A stretch of 60,235 nucleotides of DNA. Origin: a virus. The notes below the pieces were generated by a model. It was not told the DNA's origin. It did no database searches and saw only the letters and a list, made by a program, of their open reading frames with translations. The DNA lies in the IMG/VR virus record IMGVR_UViG_3300045007_000064, positions 1-60,235 of that record; one strand, given 5' to 3'. The position numbers were made by a program, and so were the translations under genes. Of this stretch, positions 7,131 through 57,407 are shown piece after piece. Every line of letters starts with the position of its first letter. Position 1 is the stretch's first letter.

Positions 7131-7131
7131 C

Positions 7132-7419: not shown

Positions 7420-7425
7420 GACTTC

Positions 7426-7824: not shown

Positions 7825-7830
7825 GACTCT

Positions 7831-7928: not shown

Positions 7929-7934
7929 ACTTAC

Positions 7935-7963
7935 AGCTTACACGACGAAGGCCCCGGGCGCAA
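7935..7963 (-). promoter_or_regulatory. Promoter of candidate small RNA
   Basis: TTGCGC, 17 bp, TAAGCT on the minus strand. The -35 sits in the loop of the terminator at 7946-7975. Confidence 0.65.
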
Positions 7964-7975
7964 ACCCGGGGCCTC
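7946..7975 (-). terminator. Intrinsic terminator
   Basis: GGCCCCGGG, TTTGCG, CCCGGGGCC then TTC on the minus strand, 10 bases after the stop at 7985. Confidence 0.7.
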
Positions 7976-7984
7976 GCGTGCCTG

Positions 7985-8386: not shown

Positions 8387-8437
8387 GTGCTTCCCTTTCT
8401 CTCTGTTGATACCAGTATAGACTATTCCGGGTAAAAA

Positions 8438-8466
8438 GAAAAGCCCCGATTTCTCGGGGCGATTCT
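8438..8466 (-). terminator. Intrinsic terminator
   Basis: GCCCCGAGAAATCGGGGC then TTTTC on the minus strand after the stop at 8469. Confidence 0.75.
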
Positions 8467-8468
8467 TA

Positions 8469-8657
8469 TCAGACCGTCTCGTCTGCGAACTCGGAGGGGT
8501 CCCAGTCCTCGTCCTCCCAGAGTTCCTCCTGATCCTCGTCTGTCCAGGGTCGAACCTCTTCGGCCTCGTACCCGTCGTATAGCTGAGCCACTATCGCACG
8601 AGCGTGCGCCTCGTCCCGCGCCGTGATGAAATGTCCGTCAACCCAGAAGTCTCGCAT
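8469..8657 (-). CDS. Hypothetical acidic protein
   Basis: 62 residues from ATG 8657 (MRDFWVDGHFITARDEAHAR), chosen because AGAGAGAAAGGGAAG lies just upstream and the promoter beyond it. Looks like a small alpha/beta domain with an acidic C-terminal tail (DEDQEELWEDEDWDPSEF). Unknown function. Confidence 0.75.
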   Translation of the reverse strand: MRDFWVDGHFITARDEAHARAIVAQLYDGYEAEEVRPWTDEDQEELWEDEDWDPSEFADETV

Positions 8658-8684
8658 GAGCTTCCCTTTCTCTCTGTTAGCACC

Positions 8685-8713
8685 AGCATACACCTATCAG
8701 GTATGCGATGCAA
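8685..8713 (-). promoter_or_regulatory. Promoter, divergent from 8725
   Basis: TTGCAT, 17 bp, TATGCT on the minus strand. Confidence 0.75.
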
Positions 8714-8721
8714 GCTTTCTG

Positions 8722-8730
8722 TGCTACACT
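8722..8730 (+). promoter_or_regulatory. Rightward extended -10 promoter
   Basis: TGCTACACT on the plus strand, six bases before ATG 8737, back to back with the leftward promoter. The same TGTGCTACACT string occurs at about 3784. Confidence 0.5.
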
Positions 8731-8736
8731 GGACGC

Positions 8737-8925
8737 ATGAGCAAAAAGCATGAGCCGGATGCCGGATTCCGCATCCGCCAGGAACTCCGCAAGGGGAGCC
8801 GTACCAGCCCCCACGACACCAGGCCCAACCGCCAGCGTTCCCGCCAGGATGCAAAGCGAGCCGCGATCCGTGATTCGGATCGCGGTTTTTCTTTGCCCGG
8901 ATGCACGCAAGAGTACGCCCACTAA
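8737..8925 (+). CDS. Possible leaderless rightward ORF or small RNA
   Basis: The only rightward candidate gene in the leftward block: ATG six bases after a -10 box, 62 codons (MSKKHEPDAGFRIRQELRKG), very basic, Arg/Ser rich. But a perfect terminator (8861-8892) interrupts the frame, and its end runs into a 24-bp element. It is more likely a roughly 150-base RNA that may carry a truncated basic peptide. No family recognised. Confidence 0.4.
   Translation: MSKKHEPDAGFRIRQELRKGSRTSPHDTRPNRQRSRQDAKRAAIRDSDRGFSLPGCTQEYAH
8861..8892 (+). terminator. Rightward intrinsic terminator
   Basis: CCGCGATCC, loop, GGATCGCGG followed by TTTTTCTTT on the plus strand: a canonical rho-independent terminator. 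Confidence 0.75.
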
Positions 8926-8927
8926 AG
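8904..8927 (+). repeat. 24-bp element, copy 5
   Basis: CACGCAAG, N8, CACTAAAG on the plus strand. Confidence 0.7.
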
Positions 8928-8940
8928 CCCGAAGGCCTTA
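8921..8940 (-). terminator. UUCG-tetraloop hairpin at stop codon
   Basis: On the minus strand CTAAGGCC, TTCG, GGCTTTAG: an 8-bp stem (one G-T pair) with a TTCG loop, beginning at the stop codon of the gene ending at 8938. Confidence 0.55.
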
Positions 8941-9147
8941 GTGCCCCTCGGGGTGGTATGCACTGTCGCAGTAGCACGGGGTCTTCCTGACCGGAGCCGA
9001 AGCCGGAGCGGGGTTGAGGTACGCGCTCGACACGTACGTGATATCAGCGAGCGAGTCCACAACGTGCGCGAGCGCGTCCGCCGCGTCGGCCTCACTCATG
9101 GGAGCGTCGGACGTGTCGATCTGGATGGTGATGGTTGCAGTACGCAT
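8938..9147 (-). CDS. Hypothetical protein with Cys pair
   Basis: 69 residues (MRTATITIQIDTSDAPMSEA). N-terminal strand and helix, C-terminal CYCDSAYHPEGH that could bind metal. ATG after GGGAGAGGAACCC; promoter is a near-consensus TTGACA-17-TAGACT. Confidence 0.75.
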   Translation of the reverse strand: MRTATITIQIDTSDAPMSEADAADALAHVVDSLADITYVSSAYLNPAPASAPVRKTPCYCDSAYHPEGH

Positions 9148-9176
9148 TTCGGGTTCCTCTCCCTTGTGTTGATATC

Positions 9177-9205
9177 AGTCTACCCTATGCGGGCGATTGT
9201 GTCAA
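9177..9205 (-). promoter_or_regulatory. Near-consensus promoter
   Basis: TTGACA, 17 bp, TAGACT on the minus strand. Confidence 0.8.
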
Positions 9206-9550
9206 CTAGTACCCCAGCCACGCGTACAGCATGGCGGCGTCCAGGTACTCCGGGAGCGTGTCCCCATCGATGATCTTGTCCCCCAGGCCGTCGATCAGCT
9301 CGGAGACAGTGAACCCGTGGGCGTCGAGAATCTTCTCCACCCGCCACGTCGGGAGCATCCGGCCCACGCGCGTGACCAGGTTGGTGTACTCCGGCGAGCG
9401 CCCCCAGTACATCTCATCGTACCCGTCCGCCTGAGCCTGAGCCGCATCGCTGAGCCTGCCCACCCGCACCTCTTCGCGGGCACCGCTCTGGTGATACGCG
9501 GTGGCGGCGAGGGCAAGCGCCCGACTGGTGGCCTCTTGGTTGCTGTTCAT
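9206..9550 (-). CDS. Hypothetical helical protein
   Basis: 114 residues (MNSNQEATSRALALAATAYH), mostly helical, no motif recognised. Leaderless start six bases after TAGGAT. The stop overlaps the next promoter's -35. Confidence 0.75.
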   Translation of the reverse strand: MNSNQEATSRALALAATAYHQSGAREEVRVGRLSDAAQAQADGYDEMYWGRSPEYTNLVTRVGRMLPTWRVEKILDAHGFTVSELIDGLGDKIIDGDTLPEYLDAAMLYAWLGY

Positions 9551-9556
9551 ATCTAT

Positions 9557-9586
9557 ATCCTACAACAGAAAAGCCCCGACTGTCAA
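9557..9586 (-). promoter_or_regulatory. Promoter nested in terminator
   Basis: TTGACA, 18 bp, TAGGAT; -35 lies in the loop side of the hairpin at 9566-9603. Confidence 0.75.
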
Positions 9587-9603
9587 GTGACAATCGGGGC
9601 GAT
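9566..9603 (-). terminator. Intrinsic terminator
   Basis: GCCCCGATTGTCA pairing with TGACAGTCGGGGC then TTTTC on the minus strand. Confidence 0.75.
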
Positions 9604-9613
9604 TCCGGCGAGG

Positions 9614-9970
9614 TCAGGCGTCGATCAGCTCGGCGGCCTCCGACTTCTCGGCGTTGCTCTTCCGCGTCTCCGCGGCGGCCTTCGCGCGGCGGCGGCGGGC
9701 GAGGTAGTGCCCGTACTCGTCCAGGAGCGCCTGCGAGTAGCGACCGCGGGAGCCGACCGTGATCCCCTTCGCGGCGAGCTTGTCGGCGTTGGCACGCGCC
9801 CACGCGCGGATGTCGGACTCCTGCTGCTCCGCGACCTGGACGCGGACGTTGCCGATGGTCAGGTCCGCACCGGGGGTGATCGCGTCGGCGTCGAGCTTGG
9901 CGGCGAGCGAGCGCAGGTGCTTGGCGAGGTCGGCGTTGGACGTGTGCTTGATGTTGACGGTGGTACGCAT
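9614..9970 (-). CDS. Lsr2-like nucleoid-associated protein
   Basis: 118 residues from ATG 9970 (MRTTVNIKHTSNADLAKHLR). Residues about 52-90 match the DNA-binding half of Lsr2: IRAWARANAD, then a SRGRYSQ segment carrying the RGR loop that inserts in the AT-rich minor groove, then LLDEYGHY. There is a short insertion relative to Lsr2, and the N-terminal half does not resemble the Lsr2 dimerisation domain. The tail is basic (LARRRRAKAAAETRK). Phage Lsr2-like proteins can compete with or mimic the host silencer. Own promoter with an 18-bp spacer. Confidence 0.65.
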   Translation of the reverse strand: MRTTVNIKHTSNADLAKHLRSLAAKLDADAITPGADLTIGNVRVQVAEQQESDIRAWARANADKLAAKGITVGSRGRYSQALLDEYGHYLARRRRAKAAAETRKSNAEKSEAAELIDA

Positions 9971-10017
9971 TGGTTTCCTTTGTTCGAAGTGATGGACTCT
10001 CTGTCCCTGTAGTAAAT

Positions 10018-10047
10018 ACATTACCCCATTCCGAAGGATTGTGTCAA
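10018..10047 (-). promoter_or_regulatory. Promoter of Lsr2-like gene
   Basis: TTGACA, 18 bp, TAATGT on the minus strand. Confidence 0.75.
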
Positions 10048-10098
10048 GTCGATCTAAGAAAATCTTTCTTGATTCCGGAAGGCCCGAACCGCTCACGT

Positions 10099-10122
10099 CA
10101 CGCAAGAGTCCGCCCACTAAAC
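10099..10122 (+). repeat. 24-bp element, copy 6
   Basis: CACGCAAG, N8, CACTAAAC on the plus strand, about 50 bp upstream of the Lsr2-like gene's promoter and next to a terminator. Confidence 0.8.
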
Positions 10123-10151
10123 GGAAAAGCCGGGATTTCTCCCGGCTTCCC
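10122..10151 (-). terminator. Intrinsic terminator
   Basis: AGCCGGGAGAAATCCCGGCT then TTTCC on the minus strand after the stop at 10154. Confidence 0.75.
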
Positions 10152-10153
10152 GC

Positions 10154-10369
10154 TCAGACCAGCGCGCGACCCTCGCGGCTCATGTCCCACCACGAGAACA
10201 ACCCACCGCGGCTGTTCCGCTTGACTGCCGCCGTGATCGCGGCGTGGTCGTCCCCGTAGCGATCCGTCAACATGTCATGGTCGGAGGGCGAGACGTTGTA
10301 CTTCCGGTACGCCGCACGCTGCGCGTAGGTCAGTTCCCCGTAGGACTCGTCGTAAACCATCTTAGGCAT
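10154..10369 (-). CDS. Hypothetical protein
   Basis: 71 residues (MPKMVYDESYGELTYAQRAA). Tyr-rich, helical, ends GGLFSWWDMSREGRALV. ATG after AAAGGGAAAGGGAGGC. Unknown function. Confidence 0.75.
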   Translation of the reverse strand: MPKMVYDESYGELTYAQRAAYRKYNVSPSDHDMLTDRYGDDHAAITAAVKRNSRGGLFSWWDMSREGRALV

Positions 10370-10398
10370 TGGTGCCTCCCTTTCCCTTTGTTACTTAC

Positions 10399-10427
10399 AG
10401 TATACGGCAAAAACGCCCTAGACGCAA
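10399..10427 (-). promoter_or_regulatory. Promoter nested in terminator
   Basis: TTGCGT, 17 bp, TATACT; the -35 begins in the terminator loop and runs into its 3' arm. Confidence 0.8.
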
Positions 10428-10441
10428 TGTCTAGGGCGCTT
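10406..10441 (-). terminator. Perfect-stem terminator
   Basis: CGCCCTAGAC, ATTGC, GTCTAGGGCG then TTTTTG on the minus strand. Confidence 0.8.
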
Positions 10442-10451
10442 TTGGTTTCGG

Positions 10452-10658
10452 CTAGGGGAGAATCTCCCAGTCCCACTCGTCGTAATCGACGGCCACGGAC
10501 GTGAGCGTGTTGTCGAGGTCGAGGGCCACATAGGACTCATCCCCGATGAACGTCTCATCCCGGACGATCCCGACCAGAACGGACGGCGGCACGCCCTCGG
10601 CGCGCTTGCCGTAGTTGTCCTTGGCGGTGGCCTTGACGTGCTTTCCGATGTTGCTCAT
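10452..10658 (-). CDS. Hypothetical protein
   Basis: 68 residues (MSNIGKHVKATAKDNYGKRA). Beta-rich middle (SVLVGIVRDETFIGD, SYVALDLDN) and acidic Trp-containing tail; could be a small barrel such as an SH3-like fold. ATG after GGGAAAGGGAG. Confidence 0.75.
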   Translation of the reverse strand: MSNIGKHVKATAKDNYGKRAEGVPPSVLVGIVRDETFIGDESYVALDLDNTLTSVAVDYDEWDWEILP

Positions 10659-10690
10659 GGTTTCTCCCTTTCCCTGGAGTTATTACTATG

Positions 10691-10719
10691 AGCATACAAC
10701 AAAAACGCCCCGGATACAA
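10691..10719 (-). promoter_or_regulatory. Promoter whose -35 is the terminator loop
   Basis: TTGTAT, 17 bp, TATGCT. The six-base loop of the preceding terminator is exactly TTGTAT. Confidence 0.8.
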
Positions 10720-10727
10720 CCGGGGCG
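10700..10727 (-). terminator. Intrinsic terminator
   Basis: CGCCCCGG, TTGTAT, CCGGGGCG then TTTTTG on the minus strand. Confidence 0.8.
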
Positions 10728-10733
10728 AGTTTG

Positions 10734-10826
10734 TTAGAGCATCGGCTCGCGGTGGGGGTTGTCCCTCCCCATCTGCGAGAGCATGAGCGCGAGGGTGATA
10801 ACCCCGGCGATGAGTGCGGCGATCAC
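10734..10826 (-). CDS. 30-residue single-span membrane peptide
   Basis: GTG at 10826 overlaps the upstream TGA (GTGA), so it is translationally coupled. Sequence MIAALIAGVITLALMLSQMG then RDNPHREPML, with the span at 1-18. Function unknown. Confidence 0.55.
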   Translation of the reverse strand: MIAALIAGVITLALMLSQMGRDNPHREPML

Positions 10827-11200
10827 AGCGCCGCCACAATCGCCTGGATCGTGGCATCGCTCGGAATCTGCACGAACTTGTACGGCACCTTCGCGACGCA
10901 CTTCTCGTACGCCTCCGGGAAGGCCGACTTCATGAGGTCGTAGTCCGGCTTGGTCGCGTGCCGGAGGGAGGACAGCGAGGCGATGACCTGACCGCGCACG
11001 ACGATCTGTTCCTCGTCTCCCATCTCGGCGCGCAGCTCGGCTTCCAGCACCTTGCGCGTGCGCTCGGCGGCAGCGCCCGCGCGCTCGATGGTCTTGAGTT
11101 CTCCGATGCGCTTGACCTTCGCGAGCAGGTCGGCATCGTTGGTGACGTTGAGTCCGGGCTTGGTGTTCTTGTTCCGGCGCTGGGCGGTGGTGGTGGCCAT
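10823..11200 (-). CDS. Possible recombination-nuclease accessory protein
   Basis: 125 residues from ATG 11200 (MATTTAQRRNKNTKPGLNVT), preceded by GAGGATTC; an ATG four codons earlier is possible. The core (about 45-115: RTRKVLEAELRAEMGDEEQI, then PDYDLMKSAFPEAYEKCVAK, then YKFVQIP) resembles the C-terminal module of YqaJ-type phage exonucleases and their stand-alone partners. The N-terminal 15 residues are basic. The match is by pattern only, so treat the function as tentative. Confidence 0.6.
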   Translation of the reverse strand: MATTTAQRRNKNTKPGLNVTNDADLLAKVKRIGELKTIERAGAAAERTRKVLEAELRAEMGDEEQIVVRGQVIASLSSLRHATKPDYDLMKSAFPEAYEKCVAKVPYKFVQIPSDATIQAIVAAL

Positions 11201-45806: not shown

Positions 45807-45835
45807 AGCTTACGAGGTGGTGAGAGGAATGTCAA
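45807..45835 (-). promoter_or_regulatory. Leaderless-type promoter
   Basis: TTGACA, 17 bp, TAAGCT, then 6 bases to ATG 45800. Confidence 0.8.
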
Positions 45836-46580
45836 GCCCAGCCTGGAACTTGGCGAACTGCGCCTCCACGTCCCGCAGACGGTTGCGAGCGTAGGAGGGG
45901 TTGTAGAACACGGCGTCCTTGTCGAACACCTCCCGGTAGAGCGGGATCAGCGGCATATACCGGTCGATGAAGTACTTGGCCTTCGGGTCGTCGTACTCGT
46001 AGTGGTGGTGCAGGGACCCCGCGTTGTCCACGAAATCGCTGAACTTCACAATGCGGCTCGACTCGGACCGCAGGGCGATCTTCTCCACATGCTCCTGATA
46101 CTGCTTGACCTTATCTGCCTTGCTGATACCCTCGGGGAGAATGGGGTTCGAGACGGCATCCACGATAGCCGCCGTGGTGTACCCGAACTTGCTCCCGATG
46201 AAGTTGAACGCTGCGGTCCGAGCCTCCTGCTCGGTCGCACTCCGCGGCACGCCGTCGAAGTCCGCGAACTCGAAGGCGTGATCCTCCACCGTGTCATGGA
46301 GCACAGCCGCGAGATAGGTGTCCACGTCCTTCACGCCGAGGGCGGTCAGACGCAGAGCCACCCGAAGCGGATGCTCGATGTACGGCGGGTTCGGCATCCC
46401 ACCGCGACCACCACGACGAACGTCGGTGCGGTGCAGGTAGCTCGCCACCTGGATCGCATCGTTCAGTCGCTCGGTGTATCGCACCGGGAACCGAAGCTCG
46501 AAGTACGCACGCAGCTTGGCCGCGAGGCTGACGGAATCCAGGTCCTTCAGCGGCTGGTGCTCATTCCGGAAGGTAATCAC
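45810..46580 (-). CDS. SpoT/MESH1-like HD hydrolase (small alarmone hydrolase)
   Basis: 256 residues from GTG 46580, coupled to the upstream TGA (MITFRNEHQPLKDLDSVSLA). The metal-binding order fits the RelA/SpoT hydrolase domain: His70 in YIEHPLRVAL, His95-Asp96 in AAVLHDTVED with Glu99/Asp100, and Asp182 in IVKFSDFVDNAGSL. There is no synthetase domain, so it should only hydrolyse, perhaps (p)ppGpp or (p)ppApp. Phage-encoded small alarmone hydrolases are known to neutralise toxSAS toxins. Substrate here is not shown. Confidence 0.75.
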   Translation of the reverse strand: MITFRNEHQPLKDLDSVSLAAKLRAYFELRFPVRYTERLNDAIQVASYLHRTDVRRGGRGGMPNPPYIEHPLRVALRLTALGVKDVDTYLAAVLHDTVEDHAFEFADFDGVPRSATEQEARTAAFNFIGSKFGYTTAAIVDAVSNPILPEGISKADKVKQYQEHVEKIALRSESSRIVKFSDFVDNAGSLHHHYEYDDPKAKYFIDRYMPLIPLYREVFDKDAVFYNPSYARNRLRDVEAQFAKFQAGLDIPLTTS

Positions 46581-47025: not shown

Positions 47026-47428
47026 GCAACATGATCTGCCATGTCATCTCGGGGTACTCGATGATGACCCCGCGGACATACTGGTTATCCTTGACGGCGG
47101 TGAACTGGTACCTCTCGGACTCGTCCTCGTAGTTGAGGTAGCCCAGCTTCTCAAGCTGGTGCTGTTTCTCGGCCTCGATAGCGGTGGATCGCATGGTTGA
47201 ACTTACGATAGCATTCACCCCCGCCCCCGCGGGGACCGCGCAAGCCGCAATGATAAGCCCGATGAAGGCAGCGTGGCGAAGGCCCCCTGCCACACGACGG
47301 GTGGAGGCCGTGAAGGACAGGAGCCAGACGAGGCCGACCACGACAAAGAGAATCGCCACACCTACCGCGGTCCACTGCCAGCCGATCCAGGACCAGCCCG
47401 GGTCTTCAACAATGATCTTGTCGATCAT
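47000..47428 (-). CDS. DPGW-family membrane protein 3
   Basis: 142 residues (MIDKIIVEDPGWSWIGWQWT). DPGWSW at 9-14, spans about 18-40 and 50-75, then a soluble domain (LEKLGYLNYEDESERYQFTA, EMTWQIMLLD). Overlaps the NadR start in ATGA. All three DPGW genes adjoin nucleotide-metabolism genes. Confidence 0.7.
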   Translation of the reverse strand: MIDKIIVEDPGWSWIGWQWTAVGVAILFVVVGLVWLLSFTASTRRVAGGLRHAAFIGLIIAACAVPAGAGVNAIVSSTMRSTAIEAEKQHQLEKLGYLNYEDESERYQFTAVKDNQYVRGVIIEYPEMTWQIMLLDMNVEKE

Positions 47429-48501
47429 GATTCCTCGTTCTCATATTCTGCGCCGATGCGCTTGTACTTGATGGGGTTGGCGAGTAGCGGCTCAATCGCA
47501 CCCAACGCTGCACCCATTCTGCCGAGGAGAGTGCTCTCCTCCAGGATGACGTACGGAAGCTCATACTTCTCGCAGAAATCGATCCAGTACTGGTCGCTGG
47601 TTTCCCGCTTATCCCCGCCGTAACGGAGCGGGTCAGCCTCGAACGGGATGTTGGAGCGCAGGATGATGTAGAGGTCACTCTTGGTCAGCTTGGCAGCCTC
47701 CAGAAGGGCCTCCGGCACGGTCTCCGGCTCCCAGTTCTCCCAGAACCCGAGGGTCGTAAAGAGGTCGGTGTCCTGGAGCACGAGAGGCGCGAGGACATTC
47801 TCGTACGCGGTTTCCTGGAGGGCCTGTTGACCCTCCCAGATGCTCAGCATCTTCTCGTAGGTGACCTCAGCGCCGACCATCTCCAGGTAGGGGCGTGCCC
47901 ATTCGAAGAGCTTGGTCGTCGGGATGCCGATATCCCAGTAGGCGTCGGAGAGAGCGCGCGTCAAGGTTGTCTTGCCGACGCTTTCCGCTCCGAACATTGT
48001 CACCTTCTTCTGAAGGTAATGACGGAACTCGGGAAGAATCTGATCCCAGCCGCCCTTGGTGAACGGTGCGTTGCGTGCGCTCGTCCCCTTGGTGTAGCGC
48101 GACCAGCGGTCGGGGTCGAAGGGCATGAAGACACCGTTGGCGCGCTTCGCCAGCTCGACACCGTACTGCTCAGATGCCACGATGTAGTCGCCGTCTCGGA
48201 AGCCGTAGCGGTGAAGGTTACCGACCCAGTTGGCCCAGAAGGCATCAGGGGTGTCGCCTGGCTCCTGAGGGGTGTCCTCGTTCTGCCACTCCAGGTGGAA
48301 CCGAGGAGCGCCTTCCAGGAGGTTGAGGTTCAACAGCGCCGCCTCCAGCGCCTTCGCGCGCTCCGTAACCATCGGCTCGCTGGGCTGGGTGTTGAGGAAG
48401 AGGACGACCTCGTTCACGTCCAGGTGCCCCGCGAACTTCACCAGGTCCAGATGGCCGAACGTCGGCGGCAGGGCCGTCATCAGAACATATGCCTGAGTCA
48501 T
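47425..48501 (-). CDS. nadR: NadR-type NMN adenylyltransferase/ribosylnicotinamide kinase
   Basis: 358 residues from ATG 48501 (MTQAYVLMTALPPTFGHLDL). N-terminal nucleotidyltransferase: T14-x-G16-H17 of the (H/T)xGH motif and KGTSAR near 138-143 as the second motif. C-terminal kinase: P-loop GAESVGKTT at 171-179. This is the NadR order without the HTH domain. It would phosphorylate nicotinamide riboside to NMN and adenylylate NMN to NAD+. Coupled to both neighbours by ATGA overlaps. Confidence 0.85.
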   Translation of the reverse strand: MTQAYVLMTALPPTFGHLDLVKFAGHLDVNEVVLFLNTQPSEPMVTERAKALEAALLNLNLLEGAPRFHLEWQNEDTPQEPGDTPDAFWANWVGNLHRYGFRDGDYIVASEQYGVELAKRANGVFMPFDPDRWSRYTKGTSARNAPFTKGGWDQILPEFRHYLQKKVTMFGAESVGKTTLTRALSDAYWDIGIPTTKLFEWARPYLEMVGAEVTYEKMLSIWEGQQALQETAYENVLAPLVLQDTDLFTTLGFWENWEPETVPEALLEAAKLTKSDLYIILRSNIPFEADPLRYGGDKRETSDQYWIDFCEKYELPYVILEESTLLGRMGAALGAIEPLLANPIKYKRIGAEYENEES

Positions 48502-49238
48502 TCCCAATCCTTCCCCTGGAATCCAGCCTGGATCGCAGAGCGGGCAGGCTCGGAGAACTCTGCCACGCGCTTGCGGATGGTCGCCTTGATCTGAGCGTGC
48601 TGCTCGGGCCACTTCTTGGTGGTCGGAGGATCGTGCAACTCGTCACCGATACGCACGCCGAGGAGGTCGTCGGTGATGTACCACTCGGTGAGGATTTCAC
48701 CGGAAGCACGCAGCTTCTCGACGTAGTGCTTGAATCCCTCCACGACATGGATGTTGCCGACGAAAACCCACGGGTCACCCTCGATGTCATCGAAGCCCTC
48801 GCCCTTGTGCTCCATGCCTCCCGAGATGGGGAACTGGAAGATCGGCGCGAACTCGTTCGACTTGCCGCTGAACGGACGCCAGTTGAAGAAGATGTACGCC
48901 TCGTTCAGGTTACCCCGGTAGTCGTTGATCTTCAGCAGGATGCCGTCAGACCAGAGCATGATCGTGTGCTGGGGATCGCCGTAATTGCTGGGACCGTGGT
49001 GGACCCAGACGGGGGTGAACCCGGCATCACGGGCGATATCTACCGCCTCCGTGAACGGGATGTTACGGTAGAAGTCACCCCGCAGCATCAGCTCGTCCTT
49101 CTTGCGCTGTGCGCTCTCCTGGAGGAGTAGGAAGCCGAGACCCTGGGTGCCGGGGTCTTCCTTGTAGCTCTTGCCGGTGACCTTCTCCGCCTCCAGAAGG
49201 GGGTCGAAGTGGAGGATGCTGTCGAAGTCTTCGCTCAT
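48498..49238 (-). CDS. Hypothetical protein
   Basis: 246 residues (MSEDFDSILHFDPLLEAEKV). Alpha/beta with WVHHGPSNYGDPQHTIMLWS and a Trp-rich core; no family recognised. Leaderless first gene of the NadR transcript, so perhaps linked to it. Confidence 0.7.
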   Translation of the reverse strand: MSEDFDSILHFDPLLEAEKVTGKSYKEDPGTQGLGFLLLQESAQRKKDELMLRGDFYRNIPFTEAVDIARDAGFTPVWVHHGPSNYGDPQHTIMLWSDGILLKINDYRGNLNEAYIFFNWRPFSGKSNEFAPIFQFPISGGMEHKGEGFDDIEGDPWVFVGNIHVVEGFKHYVEKLRASGEILTEWYITDDLLGVRIGDELHDPPTTKKWPEQHAQIKATIRKRVAEFSEPARSAIQAGFQGKDWE

Positions 49239-49244
49239 GGTTAC

Positions 49245-49273
49245 AGCTTACTGTACTTTCTCGGATACGTCAA
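49245..49273 (-). promoter_or_regulatory. Leaderless-type promoter
   Basis: TTGACG, 17 bp, TAAGCT, then 6 bases to ATG 49238. Confidence 0.75.
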
Positions 49274-49442
49274 GTCTCCGCCAGTTGTCCAGCGGCTCTG
49301 CATCGGTGATGAACGGCTTCTCGCAGGAGTGCATCACGAGACGCGCATCCGGGGAGAAGTCGAACTGGACACTCCCAGCGGGAGCCTCGTCTACAACTGC
49401 GAGACGAGCGCTCCCGGTGAGAGTCTTAGGTCCGTCAGACAC
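49248..49442 (-). CDS. Hypothetical beta protein
   Basis: 64 residues from GTG 49442, overlapping the PnuC stop (MSDGPKTLTGSARLAVVDEA). Beta-rich, one Cys. Unknown. Confidence 0.6.
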   Translation of the reverse strand: MSDGPKTLTGSARLAVVDEAPAGSVQFDFSPDARLVMHSCEKPFITDAEPLDNWRRLDVSEKVQ

Positions 49443-50280
49443 CCTTGACCACACGGCCTTCAGAGGGCGGGAGGGTGTCGTAGAGAGCCTTGGTGGCCTC
49501 CACGTCAGCCTCAGCGTAGGCGACCAGCTTGGGATCGAACTGCACGTTGTTGACGGCGACCACCGGGGATTCATCCAGGATGTCCGTACCGGCTTCCTTC
49601 ATCGACTGACGCCACAGGATGTAGCCCGGGATGTTGGCGAAGAAGAAAATGAGCTGCTGGACGGCGGCGAAGGGGGCACCAGCGGTGAAGTAGAGCGTCA
49701 CGCCGACGATGTTGACCGCACCCCAGACGAACCAGGCGAAGAGCACCTTGTTGTCGAGGAGGAACTGAGCGGCGATTGTCAGGACCAGAATGGCAGCGTC
49801 CCAGAAGGCGAACTGTCCACCGAAAGCGGTCGAGATGAAGTACGCACCCGCGTAGGTAGCGGCGGTCGCGAGGATATAGGCAGGAATCCACTTGGCCTGG
49901 AGCTTGTGAACCGGGCGGCTCTTGGCGTCCGGACCCCAGCGGAAGAAGCCGTAGACGAGCTGACCCACCAGGTACGCCGACAGGATCGCGGAAGCGAGCA
50001 GTCCGTACTGGAAGTACGCGATGGCGAACGCGGCGGATGCGGCGAAGCCGAGGGCGTAGGTGAATCGGCGCTGCTTGATGGACAGATAGGTCGCACCGTA
50101 GTTGATGGTCGCACCCGCGACCTCAAACCAGTTCGGTGCGCCGGTCAGCCAGCCCATGCCGTAGGCGAGGGCGAAGGTCAGACCGGAGAGAACGACTGCG
50201 ATCACCGCAGCGATGAAGAAGTCGTTCTTCAGGAAGCGCACCAGACCTGAGGTCGGTGCGGGGAGATAGGGCGTGCTCAC
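49435..50280 (-). CDS. pnuC: PnuC-type nicotinamide riboside transporter
   Basis: 281 residues (MSTPYLPAPTSGLVRFLKND). About seven membrane spans; WFEVAGATINYGATYLSIKQ and LDNKVLFAWFVWGAVNIVGV fit the conserved PnuC helices with the W-x-x-N-x(2)-Y/W ligand region. A C-terminal tail of about 55 residues (ILDESPVVAVNNVQFDPKLV) is an extension beyond typical PnuC. It would import nicotinamide riboside by facilitated diffusion, trapped by the NadR kinase. GTG start coupled to the small upstream gene. Confidence 0.85.
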   Translation of the reverse strand: MSTPYLPAPTSGLVRFLKNDFFIAAVIAVVLSGLTFALAYGMGWLTGAPNWFEVAGATINYGATYLSIKQRRFTYALGFAASAAFAIAYFQYGLLASAILSAYLVGQLVYGFFRWGPDAKSRPVHKLQAKWIPAYILATAATYAGAYFISTAFGGQFAFWDAAILVLTIAAQFLLDNKVLFAWFVWGAVNIVGVTLYFTAGAPFAAVQQLIFFFANIPGYILWRQSMKEAGTDILDESPVVAVNNVQFDPKLVAYAEADVEATKALYDTLPPSEGRVVKGV

Positions 50281-50429
50281 TGGAAGGTTCCTTTCAGGAC
50301 GGCAGAAAAGTACTCATGAAGAGCCTCGTACTGCGCTTCACCGATGTACAGATTGTCCACGGTGATCGCCAGCGTCCCGGGTGTCTCCCGCACGGCTAGA
50401 CCGTTGGAGGCTACGAATTCTTTGCTCAT
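50277..50429 (-). CDS. 50-residue hypothetical protein
   Basis: ATG 50429 (MSKEFVASNGLAVRETPGTL), first gene of the PnuC transcript; TACGTT then GGAGGC and the ATG. Short alpha/beta. Stop overlaps the PnuC GTG. Confidence 0.65.
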   Translation of the reverse strand: MSKEFVASNGLAVRETPGTLAITVDNLYIGEAQYEALHEYFSAVLKGTFQ

Positions 50430-50435
50430 GCCTCC

Positions 50436-50464
50436 AACGTAGCAGCTATCTTAGCTGCCGTCAA
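50436..50464 (-). promoter_or_regulatory. Promoter of PnuC transcript
   Basis: TTGACG, 17 bp, TACGTT, then GGAGGC and ATG 50429. Confidence 0.7.
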
Positions 50465-50633
50465 GCCTCGGACCCAAGGTTCCACAGAAGACGCAGACGG
50501 CACGATCCGCACCCACCGCCACCTGGAATCGGTGGAGGGAGCGCGGACCGTTCGGTACGCCCTTATCGCACGGAAGCTGAGTAAAGTTGGCGCTGTTACT
50601 CAGATGTGTGTTGACCATACTAACGTCGGACAT
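50451..50633 (-). CDS. Hypothetical zinc-knuckle-like protein
   Basis: 60 residues (MSDVSMVNTHLSNSANFTQL). CDKG near 22 and CVFCGTLG near 47-52 give two Cys pairs or a pair plus single Cys. ATG 50618 is an alternative start. Overlaps its neighbour. Confidence 0.6.
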   Translation of the reverse strand: MSDVSMVNTHLSNSANFTQLPCDKGVPNGPRSLHRFQVAVGADRAVCVFCGTLGPRLDGS

Positions 50634-50808
50634 GCTGCCCCCAGATTTGAAGAGACTTCAGGGTAATGGACTTCTCGGTAGACTCATCGAGGTAATACGG
50701 CCCTGTTCCGTAGAGAACTACCTCAAAGTCGTCGGGAATACCTGATCCCCGAAGGATTCGAGCGGTAAGATGTCCTTCGTCTACCCAGCGCAGGGCGCGG
50801 TCAGTCAT
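50620..50808 (-). CDS. Hypothetical protein
   Basis: 62 residues from ATG 50808 (MTDRALRWVDEGHLTARILR), overlapping the upstream stop. Alpha/beta. Unknown. Confidence 0.65.
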   Translation of the reverse strand: MTDRALRWVDEGHLTARILRGSGIPDDFEVVLYGTGPYYLDESTEKSITLKSLQIWGQHVRR

Positions 50809-50989
50809 CGTCCCGCACCCGTACAACGCCGCCGACGAACCAGTTATCCTGCTCGGCCTCGTAGCCGTGCGGGAGGCTGATCTGTGCCGGGTAGTGGCGG
50901 TCGATGGCCTTCTCCGAGGCCTCGTCCGCGTCGTCTGCCTCTACGAAGACGCTACGGTAAAGCGGGGTCTCGAATACAACTTCAAACAT
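50801..50989 (-). CDS. Hypothetical protein
   Basis: 62 residues from ATG 50989 (MFEVVFETPLYRSVFVEADD). Beta-alpha-beta, like the small phage proteins whose helix reads DADEASEKAIDRHY. Overlaps both neighbours. Confidence 0.65.
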   Translation of the reverse strand: MFEVVFETPLYRSVFVEADDADEASEKAIDRHYPAQISLPHGYEAEQDNWFVGGVVRVRDDD

Positions 50990-51119
50990 TGCCACGGTTC
51001 TTGGCTTCCTCTCGGGCCTTAAGAAGCTTCGCGTCCCAGTACAGCCAGTACGAGGGGACCGTGTACAGCATGAAGAAATCACGCATTCCACGGAAGAAGA
51101 TTCTCTTAATTCGGTTCAT
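50982..51119 (-). CDS. 45-residue basic amphipathic protein
   Basis: ATG 51119 (MNRIKRIFFRGMRDFFMLYT), fixed by TACAGT seven bases upstream although the frame is open further. Aromatic, basic, likely membrane-associated. First gene of a small-gene transcript. Confidence 0.6.
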   Translation of the reverse strand: MNRIKRIFFRGMRDFFMLYTVPSYWLYWDAKLLKAREEAKNRGNV

Positions 51120-51126
51120 AGAAACA

Positions 51127-51155
51127 ACTGTAGCTGATGGATCGGAGCCTGTCAA
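51127..51155 (-). promoter_or_regulatory. Leaderless-type promoter
   Basis: TTGACA, 17 bp, TACAGT, then 7 bases to ATG 51119. Confidence 0.7.
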
Positions 51156-51160
51156 CATAC

Positions 51161-52432
51161 TCACTCCCATCCAGAATCAACGTTCGCCTTAGGCCAGACG
51201 GACCGAATACGGTTCTTCACGGCGTCCGACAGCTCTCGGTCAACAGACGCATTGTGCTTACCGAGAAGCTGACGAACGGACCCATCCGGGGCCAGTTCGA
51301 TATTCGACACCATGTCTTCGCCCTTCATCACGGCAAAGAGAAGAGTCGATCCGTCAGCGGCTTGGTGTCCGTAACCGCTGATGCAGTTATGCATACGATT
51401 ACTCCAGTCGAAAAGCTCCTTCGTGCTCTTCGGGGCGATGATGGAGAACCCGTTATCCTCACCAAGAAACTTCTCAGCCTGCTCCTTGAGCACGATTTCT
51501 CGGTCTGCCGTCTCGATTCTTCTGAAGATACGAGGGGCAACCGTGTCGTGTAGGTCGCGCAGGTCACGGAAACCGACATCTTGCAGCGTTTCCATGTTCC
51601 GGAAACTGTCCCGGAACAACATGGTGAATTCCTCGTCTGGATTTCTGGTTAGTCTCCGGAGCTGAGTCTCGGTGCCTGTACGGAGGAATCTCCGTAGCTC
51701 TCGCAAGCCATCTCTTGTCCTGAAGAGAGAGTCTATGTCTCGTACGGTATCGATCTGAGCCTCAAGAATGCTCACGATCCAGTCCGTAGGAACGATGCCC
51801 TGGAACGTCATGACGATCTGGAGTGCCAACGTCCGCTTCGCGTGAGCACTGCCGTATCGGGAGGGCTGCATACCTGCCAGCGCGCGAGGCACCCCCTTCT
51901 GGAAGTGCTTACCCAAAATCTGCCGAGACAAACCCGTCACCGTCTCGTTTCGGAGAAGGTTAGGGACGCCAGGGGACATCGGGTCGAAGTCGGGAAGTAG
52001 AGGGAACTCCTTCTCGACAAGTGCTTTCATGGACTCGAACCCGAGATGCTTGGCCCCCACGTCCATCAGCTCGACCTCGCGCCGGTAGTACCGAGCGTCG
52101 TCTTGAATCGCGTCGAGGAACAGAGGCAACCTGTTCCGAACTGGCCCCATCTTTGATCTACCAGAACGGCGACCTCTGATGTCCCGAGGCACAATTCGTT
52201 CCTTGGAGTAGACCGCGAGCTTTCCCGTCTTCATCGAGTAAAACTCTACCCTGGTTTCCTGGAATCGGCTCCACGTCTTCCCGTTGTCCTCTCGGACTCC
52301 AGAACTGCGGTCGGAGTGGGCGACCATAAACCCAGAGGGAGTAGTGAAGACAGAACTCCATTTTTCCGGCATATACATCCCTGAGGCGGAAGTGATGCTG
52401 TCAGAGTCCTTCCGGTAGAGCAACATGGTCAT
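51161..52432 (-). CDS. PcfJ-like protein
   Basis: 423 residues (MTMLLYRKDSDSITSASGMY). The C-terminal third has the PcfJ pattern: LFDWSNRMHNCISGYGHQAA (NCISGY as the conserved C-x-x-x-Y), then LLFAVMKGEDMVSNIELAPD and VRQLLGKHNASVD. PcfJ-like proteins are found on conjugative plasmids and phages and their biochemical role is unknown. The N-terminal two thirds are helical and basic. Coupled by ATGA to the upstream gene, in the same transcript as NAMPT. Confidence 0.7.
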   Translation of the reverse strand: MTMLLYRKDSDSITSASGMYMPEKWSSVFTTPSGFMVAHSDRSSGVREDNGKTWSRFQETRVEFYSMKTGKLAVYSKERIVPRDIRGRRSGRSKMGPVRNRLPLFLDAIQDDARYYRREVELMDVGAKHLGFESMKALVEKEFPLLPDFDPMSPGVPNLLRNETVTGLSRQILGKHFQKGVPRALAGMQPSRYGSAHAKRTLALQIVMTFQGIVPTDWIVSILEAQIDTVRDIDSLFRTRDGLRELRRFLRTGTETQLRRLTRNPDEEFTMLFRDSFRNMETLQDVGFRDLRDLHDTVAPRIFRRIETADREIVLKEQAEKFLGEDNGFSIIAPKSTKELFDWSNRMHNCISGYGHQAADGSTLLFAVMKGEDMVSNIELAPDGSVRQLLGKHNASVDRELSDAVKNRIRSVWPKANVDSGWE

Positions 52433-52794
52433 GCGTAGCGCTCGATCCCGTAGTTGGCACCCTTCTTCACGGCAATCCAGGTCGCGGTAACGACACCCTT
52501 GATGAGGTCGCTCTGGCTGATCATCTCCACGAGCGTCTGTCCGAAGAAGGGGTAGTAGGTCCCGGTGTTGACATCCTGGAACCAGAACCGCGCAGCGGAA
52601 CGTCCGCGCTCCAGGGACATGATCTTCAGAGTCGCCTCGAAGGGTTCATTGTCCCGGTAAGTAACGCCAGAGGCGGGGTGCTCCGGTTCTCCGAAGGTGT
52701 ACTCCAGAAGAGCCGGGAACTCTTCGATCTTGTTGCCCACCCACATACGCTTCGTGCCGTAAGGGACTTCCTTGAGGCTATTCTTCTTGGGCAT
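52429..52794 (-). CDS. Hypothetical protein
   Basis: 121 residues (MPKKNSLKEVPYGTKRMWVG). Alpha/beta, basic start. Overlaps both neighbours. Not recognised. Confidence 0.7.
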   Translation of the reverse strand: MPKKNSLKEVPYGTKRMWVGNKIEEFPALLEYTFGEPEHPASGVTYRDNEPFEATLKIMSLERGRSAARFWFQDVNTGTYYPFFGQTLVEMISQSDLIKGVVTATWIAVKKGANYGIERYA

Positions 52795-52969
52795 TTTCTT
52801 CTCCAGGATGTAGGATGGACATATCAGAATGGTCTTGAATCAAGGGCTTCCCGTCCAGTCCAAGGAGCCGGGGACGGGAAGGGGCCTGGGACCCGAAGTG
52901 GAAAATCTCTTTCCCTGGTGTGTAATACACCGCTCCGGACCCCAGGCCACTTCTCGGGTCTCTGGTCAT
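52778..52969 (-). CDS. Hypothetical small protein after NAMPT
   Basis: 63 residues (MTRDPRSGLGSGAVYYTPGK), ATG overlapping the NAMPT stop (TGATG). Gly/Pro-rich, acidic tail. Tightly coupled, so it may be made with NAMPT. Confidence 0.65.
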   Translation of the reverse strand: MTRDPRSGLGSGAVYYTPGKEIFHFGSQAPSRPRLLGLDGKPLIQDHSDMSILHPGEENAQEE

Positions 52970-54519
52970 CAGACGATGTGACCCAGGTTCGCTCGGACCT
53001 CAGCGAAGGTCTGCGTCTTGACGAACTTGCCGTCCTCCCAGACCGTGCGGAGCTGGTCGAACTCGGTGCCCTCGGTCTCGGCTCCGGTGTGCTTCGTCGT
53101 GCTGTCCACGAGGAAGTAGCCGACGCTTCCGTCTTCCTTCTCGTAACCGGCGACCGCAATGCGACCGCGAGCCGACTTCTTGGTACCGTTGTCCGTGGCG
53201 GGGTCCTTGTAGATGTCGATGCCCTTTCCGTTGACCTGAATCCAGGTCGCCTTCATGGCACTCATGAACGTGTCACGGGTCTGGTACTGGTAGGTGAACG
53301 AGCCGACACCGAACACCACGTTGGTGCTGGCGAAGCCCTTGGCCTCCAGACGCTCCATGATCGCCTTGGCGCGGTCGTAGGTGATCGAGTCACCGTAGAT
53401 GACGCCGATGTGCGAGTCCAGAACCTTGTAGCCCTGCTCGGTGACGGTGCCGCCGAAGGTGTCCCACAGCAGCTCCACGACGCCCTTCTTGGAGGCAGAG
53501 CGCCCCGGGGAGGCCATAAGGGACTCTGTGTTGTCACGGTACTGGGAGTGGAATTCCTGGGTCCCCGTCAGGATGTCCACGGGGTCGCCCGAGTCAGGGC
53601 GGATGACGAGCTTGCCGTCACGCGCCATGATCTGATCCTTCAGCTCCGGCAGGACGTTTGTGAGGACGTTCCACAGGTCGTAGCTGTCGGAAACCGCCGA
53701 GAGAATTCCCTTGGGGTTGACGGCGAGCATGCGGCGGAAGTAGCCCAGCTCATCCTCGGGACCGAACGCGGTCGCGACCGAGTGCTCCGTGGCGGGGACC
53801 GATCCGATGACCAGGCCGTCAGCAGGACCGTAGTAGTCCTGCGCGGTCGGGAGAACGTTCAGGTTGTCCGAGCCGGTGAAGCTGAGCGCGTGACCCAGGC
53901 CCGACAGCGCGGCGGCGTGAACGCCAGCCATGCCACGGAAGCTGAAGTCGTGACCCTGCCACTCGACGCCCGCCGTGGAGCCGGTCGTCTTGACCGCGTG
54001 CTCGTCCAGGAGCTTGCGGAAGCGGTCAGCGATGGTGGCGCTCGTTGCGGCCTGCCAGACCTCAGCCGACATCGGGGTCTCGATGTAGTTCGTCAGCCAG
54101 TAGAAGTCCGGGTGGGTGTTCTCGACCGTGAACTTGGGAACACGGAGCGGAACCTTGACGCCCTCGGGGAGCGAGCGGAAGCGGAGCGGCAGGTATCCGA
54201 GACGGTGGAGCGCACGGATGTGCTCGACGCCGACACCCACGGCGATGTCCGGGGTCAGGATGGAGTCGAGGAAGTTCGCGTACTGCTCTGCGACCTCATC
54301 CTCGGTCGCCGCGAAGAACGGCTCCCACTTCTCGGTGATCCACGAGTGGAGGAACGCCTGAAGACCGAAGTGAACGGTCTCCTCCACGCCCTCGATGCGC
54401 GAGCCACGGTCGGTGAAGTTGGAGAGGACGTACTCGGTGCCCTCGGGATACATGTGGATGTGTCCCAGCTTGTAGGCATCGGTCTCGGTGAGAGGACGGA
54501 TTGCGTCGAAGTTGCTCAT
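52969..54519 (-). CDS. nadV: Nicotinamide phosphoribosyltransferase (NAMPT/NadV family)
   Basis: 516 residues (MSNFDAIRPLTETDAYKLGH). Clear NAMPT motifs in order: HDFSFRGM at 190-197, GSDN at 216-219 with Asp218 equivalent to the nicotinamide-selecting Asp, SVPATEHS at 240-247 with catalytic His246, VSDSYD at 276-281, IRPDSGDP at 306-313 with the phosphate-binding Arg307, GDSIT near 376-380, FGVGS near 403-407 and IYKDPATDNGTKKSARGRI at 436-454. It makes NMN from nicotinamide and PRPP; in NARP1 phage systems a relative makes NAD+ from ADP-ribose pyrophosphate. Sequence alone does not say which. Own promoter, AAAGGCTCCC leader. Confidence 0.9.
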   Translation of the reverse strand: MSNFDAIRPLTETDAYKLGHIHMYPEGTEYVLSNFTDRGSRIEGVEETVHFGLQAFLHSWITEKWEPFFAATEDEVAEQYANFLDSILTPDIAVGVGVEHIRALHRLGYLPLRFRSLPEGVKVPLRVPKFTVENTHPDFYWLTNYIETPMSAEVWQAATSATIADRFRKLLDEHAVKTTGSTAGVEWQGHDFSFRGMAGVHAAALSGLGHALSFTGSDNLNVLPTAQDYYGPADGLVIGSVPATEHSVATAFGPEDELGYFRRMLAVNPKGILSAVSDSYDLWNVLTNVLPELKDQIMARDGKLVIRPDSGDPVDILTGTQEFHSQYRDNTESLMASPGRSASKKGVVELLWDTFGGTVTEQGYKVLDSHIGVIYGDSITYDRAKAIMERLEAKGFASTNVVFGVGSFTYQYQTRDTFMSAMKATWIQVNGKGIDIYKDPATDNGTKKSARGRIAVAGYEKEDGSVGYFLVDSTTKHTGAETEGTEFDQLRTVWEDGKFVKTQTFAEVRANLGHIV

Positions 54520-54546
54520 GGGAGCCTTTCTGTCGTTGATAGTTTC

Positions 54547-54576
54547 AGACTACACCCTCGAAGGGAAGCTTGTCAA
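54547..54576 (-). promoter_or_regulatory. Promoter of NAMPT transcript
   Basis: TTGACA, 18 bp, TAGTCT on the minus strand, with a leader of about 25 bases and a Shine-Dalgarno. Confidence 0.75.
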
Positions 54577-54764
54577 GCCCCGGGAAGACCCATTACCTCG
54601 TCAACGTCGATGCACCCGGCATCGATGAGACGTTCCGCCATGACGACATGCTCAGGTTCGACAGGGTGGTGAATACCCTCCCCGTCCCCGATGAGCACCC
54701 GGGCTACCCGGGTCCGTAGTTGGCGGTAGCCGCTCTGAGTCAGTTCAGACGCTTTGGTTCCCAT
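54573..54764 (-). CDS. Hypothetical protein
   Basis: 63 residues (MGTKASELTQSGYRQLRTRV), ATG after AAGGAACAAC. Helical; lies between the Prs-like and NAMPT genes. Unknown. Confidence 0.65.
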   Translation of the reverse strand: MGTKASELTQSGYRQLRTRVARVLIGDGEGIHHPVEPEHVVMAERLIDAGCIDVDEVMGLPGA

Positions 54765-54773
54765 TGTTGTTCC

Positions 54774-54974
54774 TTAATTCCAGATTTCCCACGGCCAGAG
54801 GATTCCGTCCGGGGTCCAACACAGTTCCGACTTACCGCCGAACATGAATCCGCCGCGCTCCGCACACTCATTCAGGTACGGGATGCCCCAGAATACCCAG
54901 ACGAGAACCGCGGTTACGAGGAGAAGTCCCAAGATGACCTTATACCGGTGCTTGCTCCAGAACGAGTCCTTCAT
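54774..54974 (-). CDS. Single-span membrane protein
   Basis: 66 residues (MKDSFWSKHRYKVILGLLLV). Span 12-31, then a likely external tail with two Cys (NECAERGG, SELCWTP). Coupled by ATGA to the Prs-like gene. Confidence 0.7.
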   Translation of the reverse strand: MKDSFWSKHRYKVILGLLLVTAVLVWVFWGIPYLNECAERGGFMFGGKSELCWTPDGILWPWEIWN

Positions 54975-55870
54975 GGCAGGATTTCCTGGTCGAGATACGG
55001 CACGATCTTGTGGACCTTCAGGCGGGTGCCGACAGGCCAGTCAATGCTGGTGCCCTGGACAACCGAATCCTCCATGAAGTACGAGTCGGTCGTGTGGATC
55101 GTACCGAAGTGCTCCAGAAGAGCATCGATACCCTTCGAGAAAATGCCGTGCGTGACCCAGAGGTCCACGCGGTCCTTCGGGAGACCGGTCGCCTCAGCGA
55201 GGCCGATGAACGTACCGCCGCCGTCACAGATGTCATCCACGACCAGCAGCTTGCCCTCGTCGGGAAGCGCATCGACCATGTGGAATCCGGACAGCTTGCC
55301 GGTCTTCTCGTCTCGGGTCTTGCCCGCCTGGTAGACGGGCACCCCCATGAGGCGCGCGGCGCGGTTGGCTCGGTCGTGTGCGCCCTTGTCCGGAGCGATG
55401 ACACCCACGTAGGTGCTCGGGCGGGTGTCGTGGTAGCCGTCCTGAATCTGGCTCTTGATAAGCCGCTCCACCGGGTAGACGGTGAGGTTGCGCAGGGCAT
55501 CCTCGAAGTAGCCGAGAGCCGCCTCGGAGTGCGGATCGAGGGTGATGGTCTGGTCGGGATTGACCAGCTCACCCAGGAACTCGGAGTAGACGCGAGCGCC
55601 GATGACATCGCCTCGGTCCTGGCGAGCACCAGGAAGGTACGGGAGGATCAGCACGGTCTCCTCGCCGCGAGCGGCGCACAGCTCCGCCCACATGGCGAGC
55701 ATGAAGAGCTGATCGTGCGAGTGTCCCTGGACGATGGCGATCTGGTGGGAGAAGATACCACGAGGGGCCTCGGTCTCCTGGATGTGAACGGCCCCGTCCG
55801 GGAACACGATGGGCTTGAACGGTGCATCGACCATGAAGCCGTTGACGGTCTTGGCGCGGAAGGTGATCAC
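54971..55870 (-). CDS. prs: Phosphoribosyl-pyrophosphate synthetase family protein
   Basis: 299 residues (MITFRAKTVNGFMVDAPFKP), GTG start coupled to the upstream gene. Prs features: LPYLPGARQDR at 76-86, a flexible-loop region, PDKGAHDRAN at 160-169 and the PRPP-binding loop VVDDICDGGGTF at 210-221. It should make PRPP from ribose 5-phosphate and ATP, or in the NARP1 type (Adps) ADP-ribose pyrophosphate from ADP-ribose. N-terminus is shorter than in host Prs. Next to NAMPT, supplying its co-substrate. Confidence 0.8.
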   Translation of the reverse strand: MITFRAKTVNGFMVDAPFKPIVFPDGAVHIQETEAPRGIFSHQIAIVQGHSHDQLFMLAMWAELCAARGEETVLILPYLPGARQDRGDVIGARVYSEFLGELVNPDQTITLDPHSEAALGYFEDALRNLTVYPVERLIKSQIQDGYHDTRPSTYVGVIAPDKGAHDRANRAARLMGVPVYQAGKTRDEKTGKLSGFHMVDALPDEGKLLVVDDICDGGGTFIGLAEATGLPKDRVDLWVTHGIFSKGIDALLEHFGTIHTTDSYFMEDSVVQGTSIDWPVGTRLKVHKIVPYLDQEILP

Positions 55871-56796: not shown

Positions 56797-57195
56797 TTAG
56801 GACTCTACGCTGAGAACCCCGCCGTTGTCAAGATACCGGATCACAGGGATGCCCGCTTTCGTGGCCTGACCTGCGGTATGTGTGGCTCCCTTGGACCCAT
56901 CCTTGATGAACGCGAGGCAGACATCGGCTCCAAGATCGACCATAAGCTGGTTCCGGATGAATCCGGCTGCACGGCCCTCGTTCTCCCAATCAGCCGCATG
57001 AGGCTCCTCCACCGCCCAGGAGACTGATCGTGCGATATCTCGGGCCATGCGGTCGGCTCCTCGGGAGGCATCACCATGGACGATGATAATCTCCTCTTGA
57101 ACAGGGCAATTCTCCTTCACCCAGTTGAAAATAGCCAGGTAGATAGCCTCTTTAGATTCCCAGGTCCGAGACCCAGTGATGAGAATCCGCTTCAC
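56797..57195 (-). CDS. SLOG-fold protein (YpsA/DUF2493-type)
   Basis: 132 residues from GTG 57195 (MKRILITGSRTWESKEAIYL), coupled to the upstream stop. ILITGSRTW (GSRxW), VHGDASRGADRMA and DVCLAFIKDGSKGATHT fit the cpYpsA-related SLOG family, a Rossmann-like fold that binds nucleotides or NAD-derived ligands. Role unknown; location beside the NAD genes is suggestive. Confidence 0.75.
   Translation of the reverse strand: MKRILITGSRTWESKEAIYLAIFNWVKENCPVQEEIIIVHGDASRGADRMARDIARSVSWAVEEPHAADWENEGRAAGFIRNQLMVDLGADVCLAFIKDGSKGATHTAGQATKAGIPVIRYLDNGGVLSVES
56802..56831 (-). promoter_or_regulatory. Leaderless-type promoter
   Basis: TTGACA, 18 bp, TAGAGT, then 7 bases to ATG 56794; inside the end of the SLOG gene. 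Confidence 0.7.
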
Positions 57196-57407
57196 GGGAG
57201 GTCTACTCCCATAACACCGGCAGTCCAGGCACCCTCTAGTTCCTCCATAAACCAATGAGAATTGAAGACCTTGCGGGCCTGTCGTCGGTAGCTCGTCTTG
57301 ACTGGCTCGATGGCCTGCTCCCAGGGAACATCTTCCGCCTGGTGCTCATTCAGGTCAATCTCGTACAGATTACGAGCAAGGGCTTCTTCTCGGATGGAAA
57401 CGTTCAC
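57192..57407 (-). CDS. Hypothetical protein
   Basis: 71 residues (MNVSIREEALARNLYEIDLN), GTG coupled to the upstream TGA. Helical; not recognised. Confidence 0.65.
   Translation of the reverse strand: MNVSIREEALARNLYEIDLNEHQAEDVPWEQAIEPVKTSYRRQARKVFNSHWFMEELEGAWTAGVMGVDLP

Follow-up and report, generated by a model that had tools for sequence, protein, structure and literature searches.

The stretch of viral DNA analysed here (60,235 nucleotides, positions 1 to 60,235 of the 171-kb IMG/VR virus record IMGVR_UViG_3300045007_000064, in the following called the window) carries four genes of nicotinamide adenine dinucleotide (NAD+) salvage, coding for Adps, Namat, PnuC and NadR. We conclude, with a probability of about three in four, that these genes provide two complete and chemically independent routes to NAD+, namely the NARP1 pathway (Adps and Namat) and the PnuC–NadR pair, most likely in order to resist an NAD+-depleting defence. 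Adps would move pyrophosphate from ATP onto ADP-ribose to give ADP-ribose pyrophosphate (ADPR-PP), and Namat would couple ADPR-PP with nicotinamide directly to NAD+, so that both leftovers of an NADase effector would be used. PnuC would admit nicotinamide riboside, which the kinase domain of NadR would trap as nicotinamide mononucleotide (NMN) and the adenylyltransferase domain would convert to NAD+, external riboside and 2 ATP being consumed overall. Both routes together would sustain NAD+ with or without available ADP-ribose. They share no intermediate except the NMN which Namat forms in vitro in a side reaction on phosphoribosyl pyrophosphate (PRPP).

An earlier note on this DNA, made from the sequence alone, had recognized four protein families of NAD salvage with intact motifs, labelled NadR, PnuC, NAMPT and Prs homologue. 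The open reading frames (ORFs), the family matches (Pfam, PHROGs, NCBIfam) and the motifs bear this out: all four ORFs are intact, lie on the minus strand and contain no frameshifts. The note had also called the block compact, which is a loose description, as about nine further small or unknown ORFs are interspersed among the four genes across 8.5 kb, although related phages keep the gene order. The labels NAMPT and Prs homologue name the right families and are one level too coarse, since adenine clamp, tree and signature residues specify Namat and Adps.

Judged by its residues, the NAMPT-family protein of the window (matches to the NAPRTase and NAMPT_N domains with E = 1.8e-41 and 5.6e-8) is a Namat. 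Namat has been defined by an adenine clamp seen in a 2026 crystal structure (PMC12774641), which consists of the helix motif GSX-phi-X-phi-X-phi-TRD with aromatic residues at positions 3 and 7 and of a loop residue, Arg40 in the SCL loop, stacking on the adenine. In the window protein the clamp is complete with GSFTYQYQTRD at residues 406-416 and Arg41 corresponding to R40 of SPbetaL1 Namat. The closest solved structure is PDB 9w5x/9w5w (E 2e-137), which by its residue numbering fits the SPbetaL1 Namat of the same study. When the NAD+ contacts of SPbetaL1 Namat and the entire clamp helix are compared, 22 of these 24 positions are identical and only A362 (S378 in the window) and N397 (Q413) are exchanged. 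Clamp motif and loop arginine are both absent from Xcc Nampt, RB16 NadV and Ochrobactrum phage NadV. A phylogeny of the family, which the earlier note had proposed (calculated with IQ-TREE from 50 proteins), splits a Namat clade of 39 rows from a Nampt clade of 11 rows, each at 100/100, and places the window protein and its nearest kin in the Namat clade, within a 22-row sub-clade (96/88) shared with Namat of mycobacteriophage DyoEdafos. Because clamp residues and tree position identify the gene as Namat, the pair is NARP1 and not NARP2. The suggestion that both possible pairs exist together therefore had to be given up: there is a single NAMPT-family gene, and NARP2 proper is absent.

Two other proteins deviate in the clamp. 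The Namat of locus L144 (contig G007) has a glycine at the second clamp aromatic (GSYSYQGVTRD) even though Adps lies about 2 kb off, and its choice of donor may be altered. PDB 9ke8/9keo, solved as a nicotinamide phosphoribosyltransferase, belongs to the Namat clade but has neither clamp aromatic (GAQTYQRNTRD).

The Prs homologue matches phrog_619 (ribose-phosphate pyrophosphokinase) with 3e-62, yet its scores against the NCBIfam Prs models are all far under the cut-off. It contains the sequences DDICDGGGTF (212-221) and DPHS (112-115), a signature which, with DDICDGG(G/R)TF as the general form of the first sequence, is common to 23 phage relatives, among them DyoEdafos gp77 and NrsA of ICP1 (PMC11559045). 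Cellular Prs has at the same columns D-T-G/C-G-T, with the threonine in the 5'-phosphate loop where the phage set has C-D-G, and DLHA or EPHK instead of DPHS. These columns presumably set the choice of substrate. Signature columns and model scores led us to reject a true Prs for the 299-aa protein, and on its signature it is a member of the Adps family. DyoEdafos gp77 (Adps) and gp79 (Namat) together with ATP have been shown to produce NAD+ from ADP-ribose in vitro (PMC13232231), and from the close sequence features of such assayed relatives we infer that the window pair would likewise proceed from ADP-ribose via ADPR-PP to NAD+.

NadR of the window was identified by matches to the AAA_28 kinase family (2.2e-15), phrog_3462 (2.9e-38) and Haemophilus influenzae NadR (PDB 1lw7, 6.9e-11). 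Its start codon is the ATG at 48501, overlapping as ATGA with the stop codon of the preceding gene, rather than the GTG at 48612. The motifs of the adenylyltransferase (TALPPTFGH, KGTSAR) and of the kinase (GAESVGKTT, DTDL, LRYGG) are intact; among eight phage NadR proteins TALxPTxGH, KGTxxR, GxESxGKT, DTDL and LRYGG are invariant or nearly so. The riboside importer seen by the earlier note is likewise present, as PnuC matches the full model of the NMN_transporter family PF04973 (4.7e-30) and scores 58.8 bits against TIGR01528 (cut-off 42.45). The motif WxxWxxVN is invariant among eight phage PnuC proteins, and the window protein has WxxWxxxN, which we take to be the mark of riboside transport. 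PnuC is a facilitator and a kinase is required to trap the riboside; PnuC and NadR are therefore a natural pair. NadR is scarce among named phages (40 of 50,697 records). A profile search of IMG/VR yielded 37 NadR loci (single-sequence patterns had been too narrow to match NadR, PnuC or the 246-aa protein encoded between them), and in all 37 PnuC is close to NadR on the same strand, mostly as direct neighbour. Phage-type NadR was not found in bacterial genomes in a pattern-based search, which is a weak negative. We thus regard PnuC–NadR as a probable riboside import-and-conversion cassette adjoining NARP1, with PnuC presumably working in the direction of import. The earlier note had assigned NadR the part of finishing NARP2. 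This is at odds with the constant company of PnuC and with the seven loci having a PRPP-type Nampt within 10 kb of NadR, which all contain a separate NadM-type adenylyltransferase; since these loci have their own NadM, Nampt usually has a partner other than NadR.

The window derives from a large actinobacterial phage related to the Microbacterium phages Big4, Zooman, A3Wally and Cece, the DNA being 80-83% identical to Big4, Zooman and A3Wally over part of the region and Namat 77-80% identical to that of the Microbacterium phages, where read. NARP1 and PnuC–NadR occur together in the window, in these four phages, in one further named record and in contig L004. Big4, A3Wally, Zooman, Cece and the further named record have the same four genes in the same order with the same neighbours (HD hydrolase, CCA enzyme), and altogether the four genes are syntenic in six relatives. 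The combination is also present in contigs G007, G009 and G013, with the two pairs about 30 kb apart, and in G011/G012. In the distant phage contig G011 (locus L108) the genes form a strict operon in the order Adps-Namat-PnuC-NadR (Table 1). Because of the synteny in six relatives and this operon the combination is not due to chance. At least four changes are required for it on the Namat tree, and it has therefore been assembled or lost several times. In searches of whole records Adps was found in all five distinct contigs with NadR and Namat but in none of the three tested with NadR and Nampt. In the NadR tree a single branch (100/99) parts 10 Namat-linked from 11 Nampt-linked proteins, one of the latter, L096 (phiM19), being labelled from its near-identical relative L128. 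This split is confounded by host lineage, as the Namat-linked set looks actinophage and the Nampt-linked set largely of proteobacterial phage origin.

Table 1. Coordinates of the NAD+ salvage genes and neighbouring genes in the window and of the operon at locus L108
Locus	Feature	Coordinates	Strand	Remarks
Window	Adps ("Prs homologue")	54971-55870	-	299 aa, GTG start; phrog_619
Window	Namat ("NAMPT")	52969-54519	-	516 aa; NAPRTase/NAMPT_N; best PDB match 9w5x/9w5w
Window	PnuC nicotinamide-riboside importer	49435-50280	-	281 aa; PF04973, TIGR01528
Window	246-aa protein between PnuC and NadR	48498-49238	-	phrog_36907 only; synteny
Window	NadR (NMN adenylyltransferase + ribosylnicotinamide kinase domains)	47425-48501	-	358 aa, ATG start; phrog_3462, AAA_28
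Window	RelA/SpoT-type HD hydrolase (HDTVED)	45810-46580	-	weak HD-domain match; synteny
L108	Adps	6901-7782		8-bp overlap with Namat
L108	Namat	7775-9253		ATGA overlap with PnuC
L108	PnuC	9250-9999		4-bp gap before NadR
L108	NadR	10004-11047		

A counter-defence role of the block is suggested because published NARP1 has that role. Several observations weigh against two routes united for this purpose. In the window Adps and Namat are 451 bp apart on one strand, but the NARP1 pair is separated from the PnuC–NadR pair by 2.7 kb with unrelated small genes in between. The combination is seldom met: Namat is present in only 6 of 33 NadR contigs (two of the six being near copies), 18 of the 33 have no NAMPT-family gene, and NadR of the window type was found in none of 49 other Namat contigs, in a search that had no positive control and covered many contigs that are fragments. 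As many metabolic genes are usual in large phages, co-occurrence alone is a weak argument; the L108 operon is a stronger one. Possible, if rather doubtful, is an ordinary metabolic boosting, in which NAD+ serves the replication of a large genome without any specific role against immunity and both pairs were acquired separately and merely lie in the same early region. The NadR contigs lacking a NAMPT-family gene and the wide spacing of the pairs in G007, G009 and G013 agree with it, as does the occurrence of PnuC–NadR beside a PRPP-type Nampt and NadM in jumbo phages such as Ochrobactrum phage OC, there interpreted as NAD+ metabolism (PMC7139368). However, ADP-ribose, the substrate of NARP1, is plentiful chiefly once an NADase has acted, protection from NADase defences by NARP1 has been published (PMC12774641), NrsAB of ICP1 carries a fitness cost without an NADase defence (PMC11559045), and the L108 operon favours joint selection.

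NARP2 with a PRPP-type Nampt lacking the clamp is ruled out by clamp, tree and linkage. Highly improbable is also a salvage of the NARP2 or KVP40 type by the genes present, with NMN made from nicotinamide and Prs-supplied PRPP and NadR finishing NAD+. SPbetaL1 Namat does convert PRPP and nicotinamide to NMN in vitro, at about half the level of human Nampt (PMC12774641), and the adenylyltransferase domain of NadR is intact, but clamp, signature and tree indicate Namat and Adps, the true Nampt loci have NadM and no Adps as described above, and searches showed no NadM in the window and no NUDIX gene anywhere in the 171-kb record. The same side activity and the intact NadR motifs could allow a hybrid function, in which NARP1 uses ADP-ribose, PnuC–NadR uses riboside and NadR in addition rescues the NMN formed by Namat from PRPP when ADP-ribose is scarce. 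We consider such a third input unlikely, as neither the gene arrangement nor a sequence feature indicates this use and Namat phages are usually without NadR. Of the redundant or hybrid system envisaged by the earlier note there remains a gene set which on paper takes ADP-ribose plus nicotinamide and nicotinamide riboside; the NARP2 part has gone. Returning to the two independent routes, a more far-reaching version can be put forward only tentatively: a dual-input module might have been selected as a unit in actinophages, with NARP1 recycling ADP-ribose and nicotinamide and PnuC–NadR importing riboside, so that NAD+ would survive defences that destroy or sequester ADP-ribose, with NadR being shared and also using Namat NMN from PRPP, and the HD hydrolase possibly adding a conversion of NADPH to NADH.

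NARP1, PnuC–NadR in phages (Atu_ph07, PMC6102473; Ochrobactrum phage OC, PMC7139368) and the NadV + NatV salvage of KVP40 are each already known; a partial literature search found no paper describing the union of NARP1 with PnuC–NadR. The NARP1 loci of SPbetaL1, DyoEdafos and ICP1 (NrsAB) resemble the window in the Adps and Namat pair, the clamp residues, the signature and the order Adps then Namat, but are without PnuC–NadR. DyoEdafos moreover has the glycosidase RyDEP between gp77 and gp79, whereas inspection of the ORFs showed none between Adps and Namat of the window; a search of the whole record with PF02026 (RyDEP) gave no match, the control also matching nowhere. What the window has in common with KVP40 (NadV and NatV) and Ochrobactrum phage OC (NatV/NadM, NadV, PnuC and NadR) is that a large phage carries PnuC–NadR adjoining an enzyme of the NAMPT family. 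Their NadV, however, is a PRPP-type Nampt without clamp, accompanied by NadM-Nudix, while the window has Namat and Adps and no NadM.

In GenBank the Namat and Adps genes of Big4, Zooman, A3Wally and Cece are named nicotinate ribosyltransferase and phosphoribosyl(pyrophosphate) transferase, the others adenylyltransferase and PnuC, and these names hide NARP1. Calls as nicotinate phosphoribosyltransferase or ribose-phosphate pyrophosphokinase mislabel these Microbacterium phage genes. Among the loci examined Adps goes with Namat, NadM with Nampt and PnuC with NadR, and this pattern lets annotators sort such phage calls by sequence into NARP1 and Nampt types. The window is a natural case of one phage uniting two biochemically unrelated NAD+ routes, and the four Microbacterium phages are a group cultured on laboratory Microbacterium strains in which one can ask why a single route is insufficient.

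Among the neighbouring genes the HD hydrolase, weakly matched to the RelA/SpoT/MESH1 HD domain (E 6e-6 to 6e-4), keeps its place next to the four genes in each of the six relatives read. Proteins related to MESH1 act as (p)ppGpp hydrolases, and those of animals also hydrolyse NADPH to NADH; a link of the hydrolase to NAD(P) is possible by this analogy. The 246-aa protein, whose gene overlaps the start of NadR, is retained in Big4, A3Wally, Zooman and Cece and conserved only in that phage group; it has no relative in PDB, and no fold was found in its AlphaFold model (mean predicted local distance difference test score, pLDDT, 36.8). No NAD+ consumer, sought as NAD+-dependent ligase or NUDIX, was found. 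A YspA-type SLOG protein ("DprA-like", 56797-57255, minus strand) is encoded near Adps, and in DyoEdafos and others, too, one lies close to NARP1. The idea that it is a signal sponge tied to NARP1 was dropped, as its relatives are widespread among actinophages, occurring in 818 records, mostly of mycobacteriophages, irrespective of NARP1. Between Namat and PnuC there is a gene for a PcfJ-like protein (51161-52432, minus strand), also present in Big4 and Zooman and unmatched in A3Wally and Cece. Elsewhere in the same virus record a macro-domain protein (L097; 98537-98872, minus strand), situated near an ORF that on reading the DNA resembles RtcB RNA ligase, could handle ADP-ribose derivatives or products of RNA repair.

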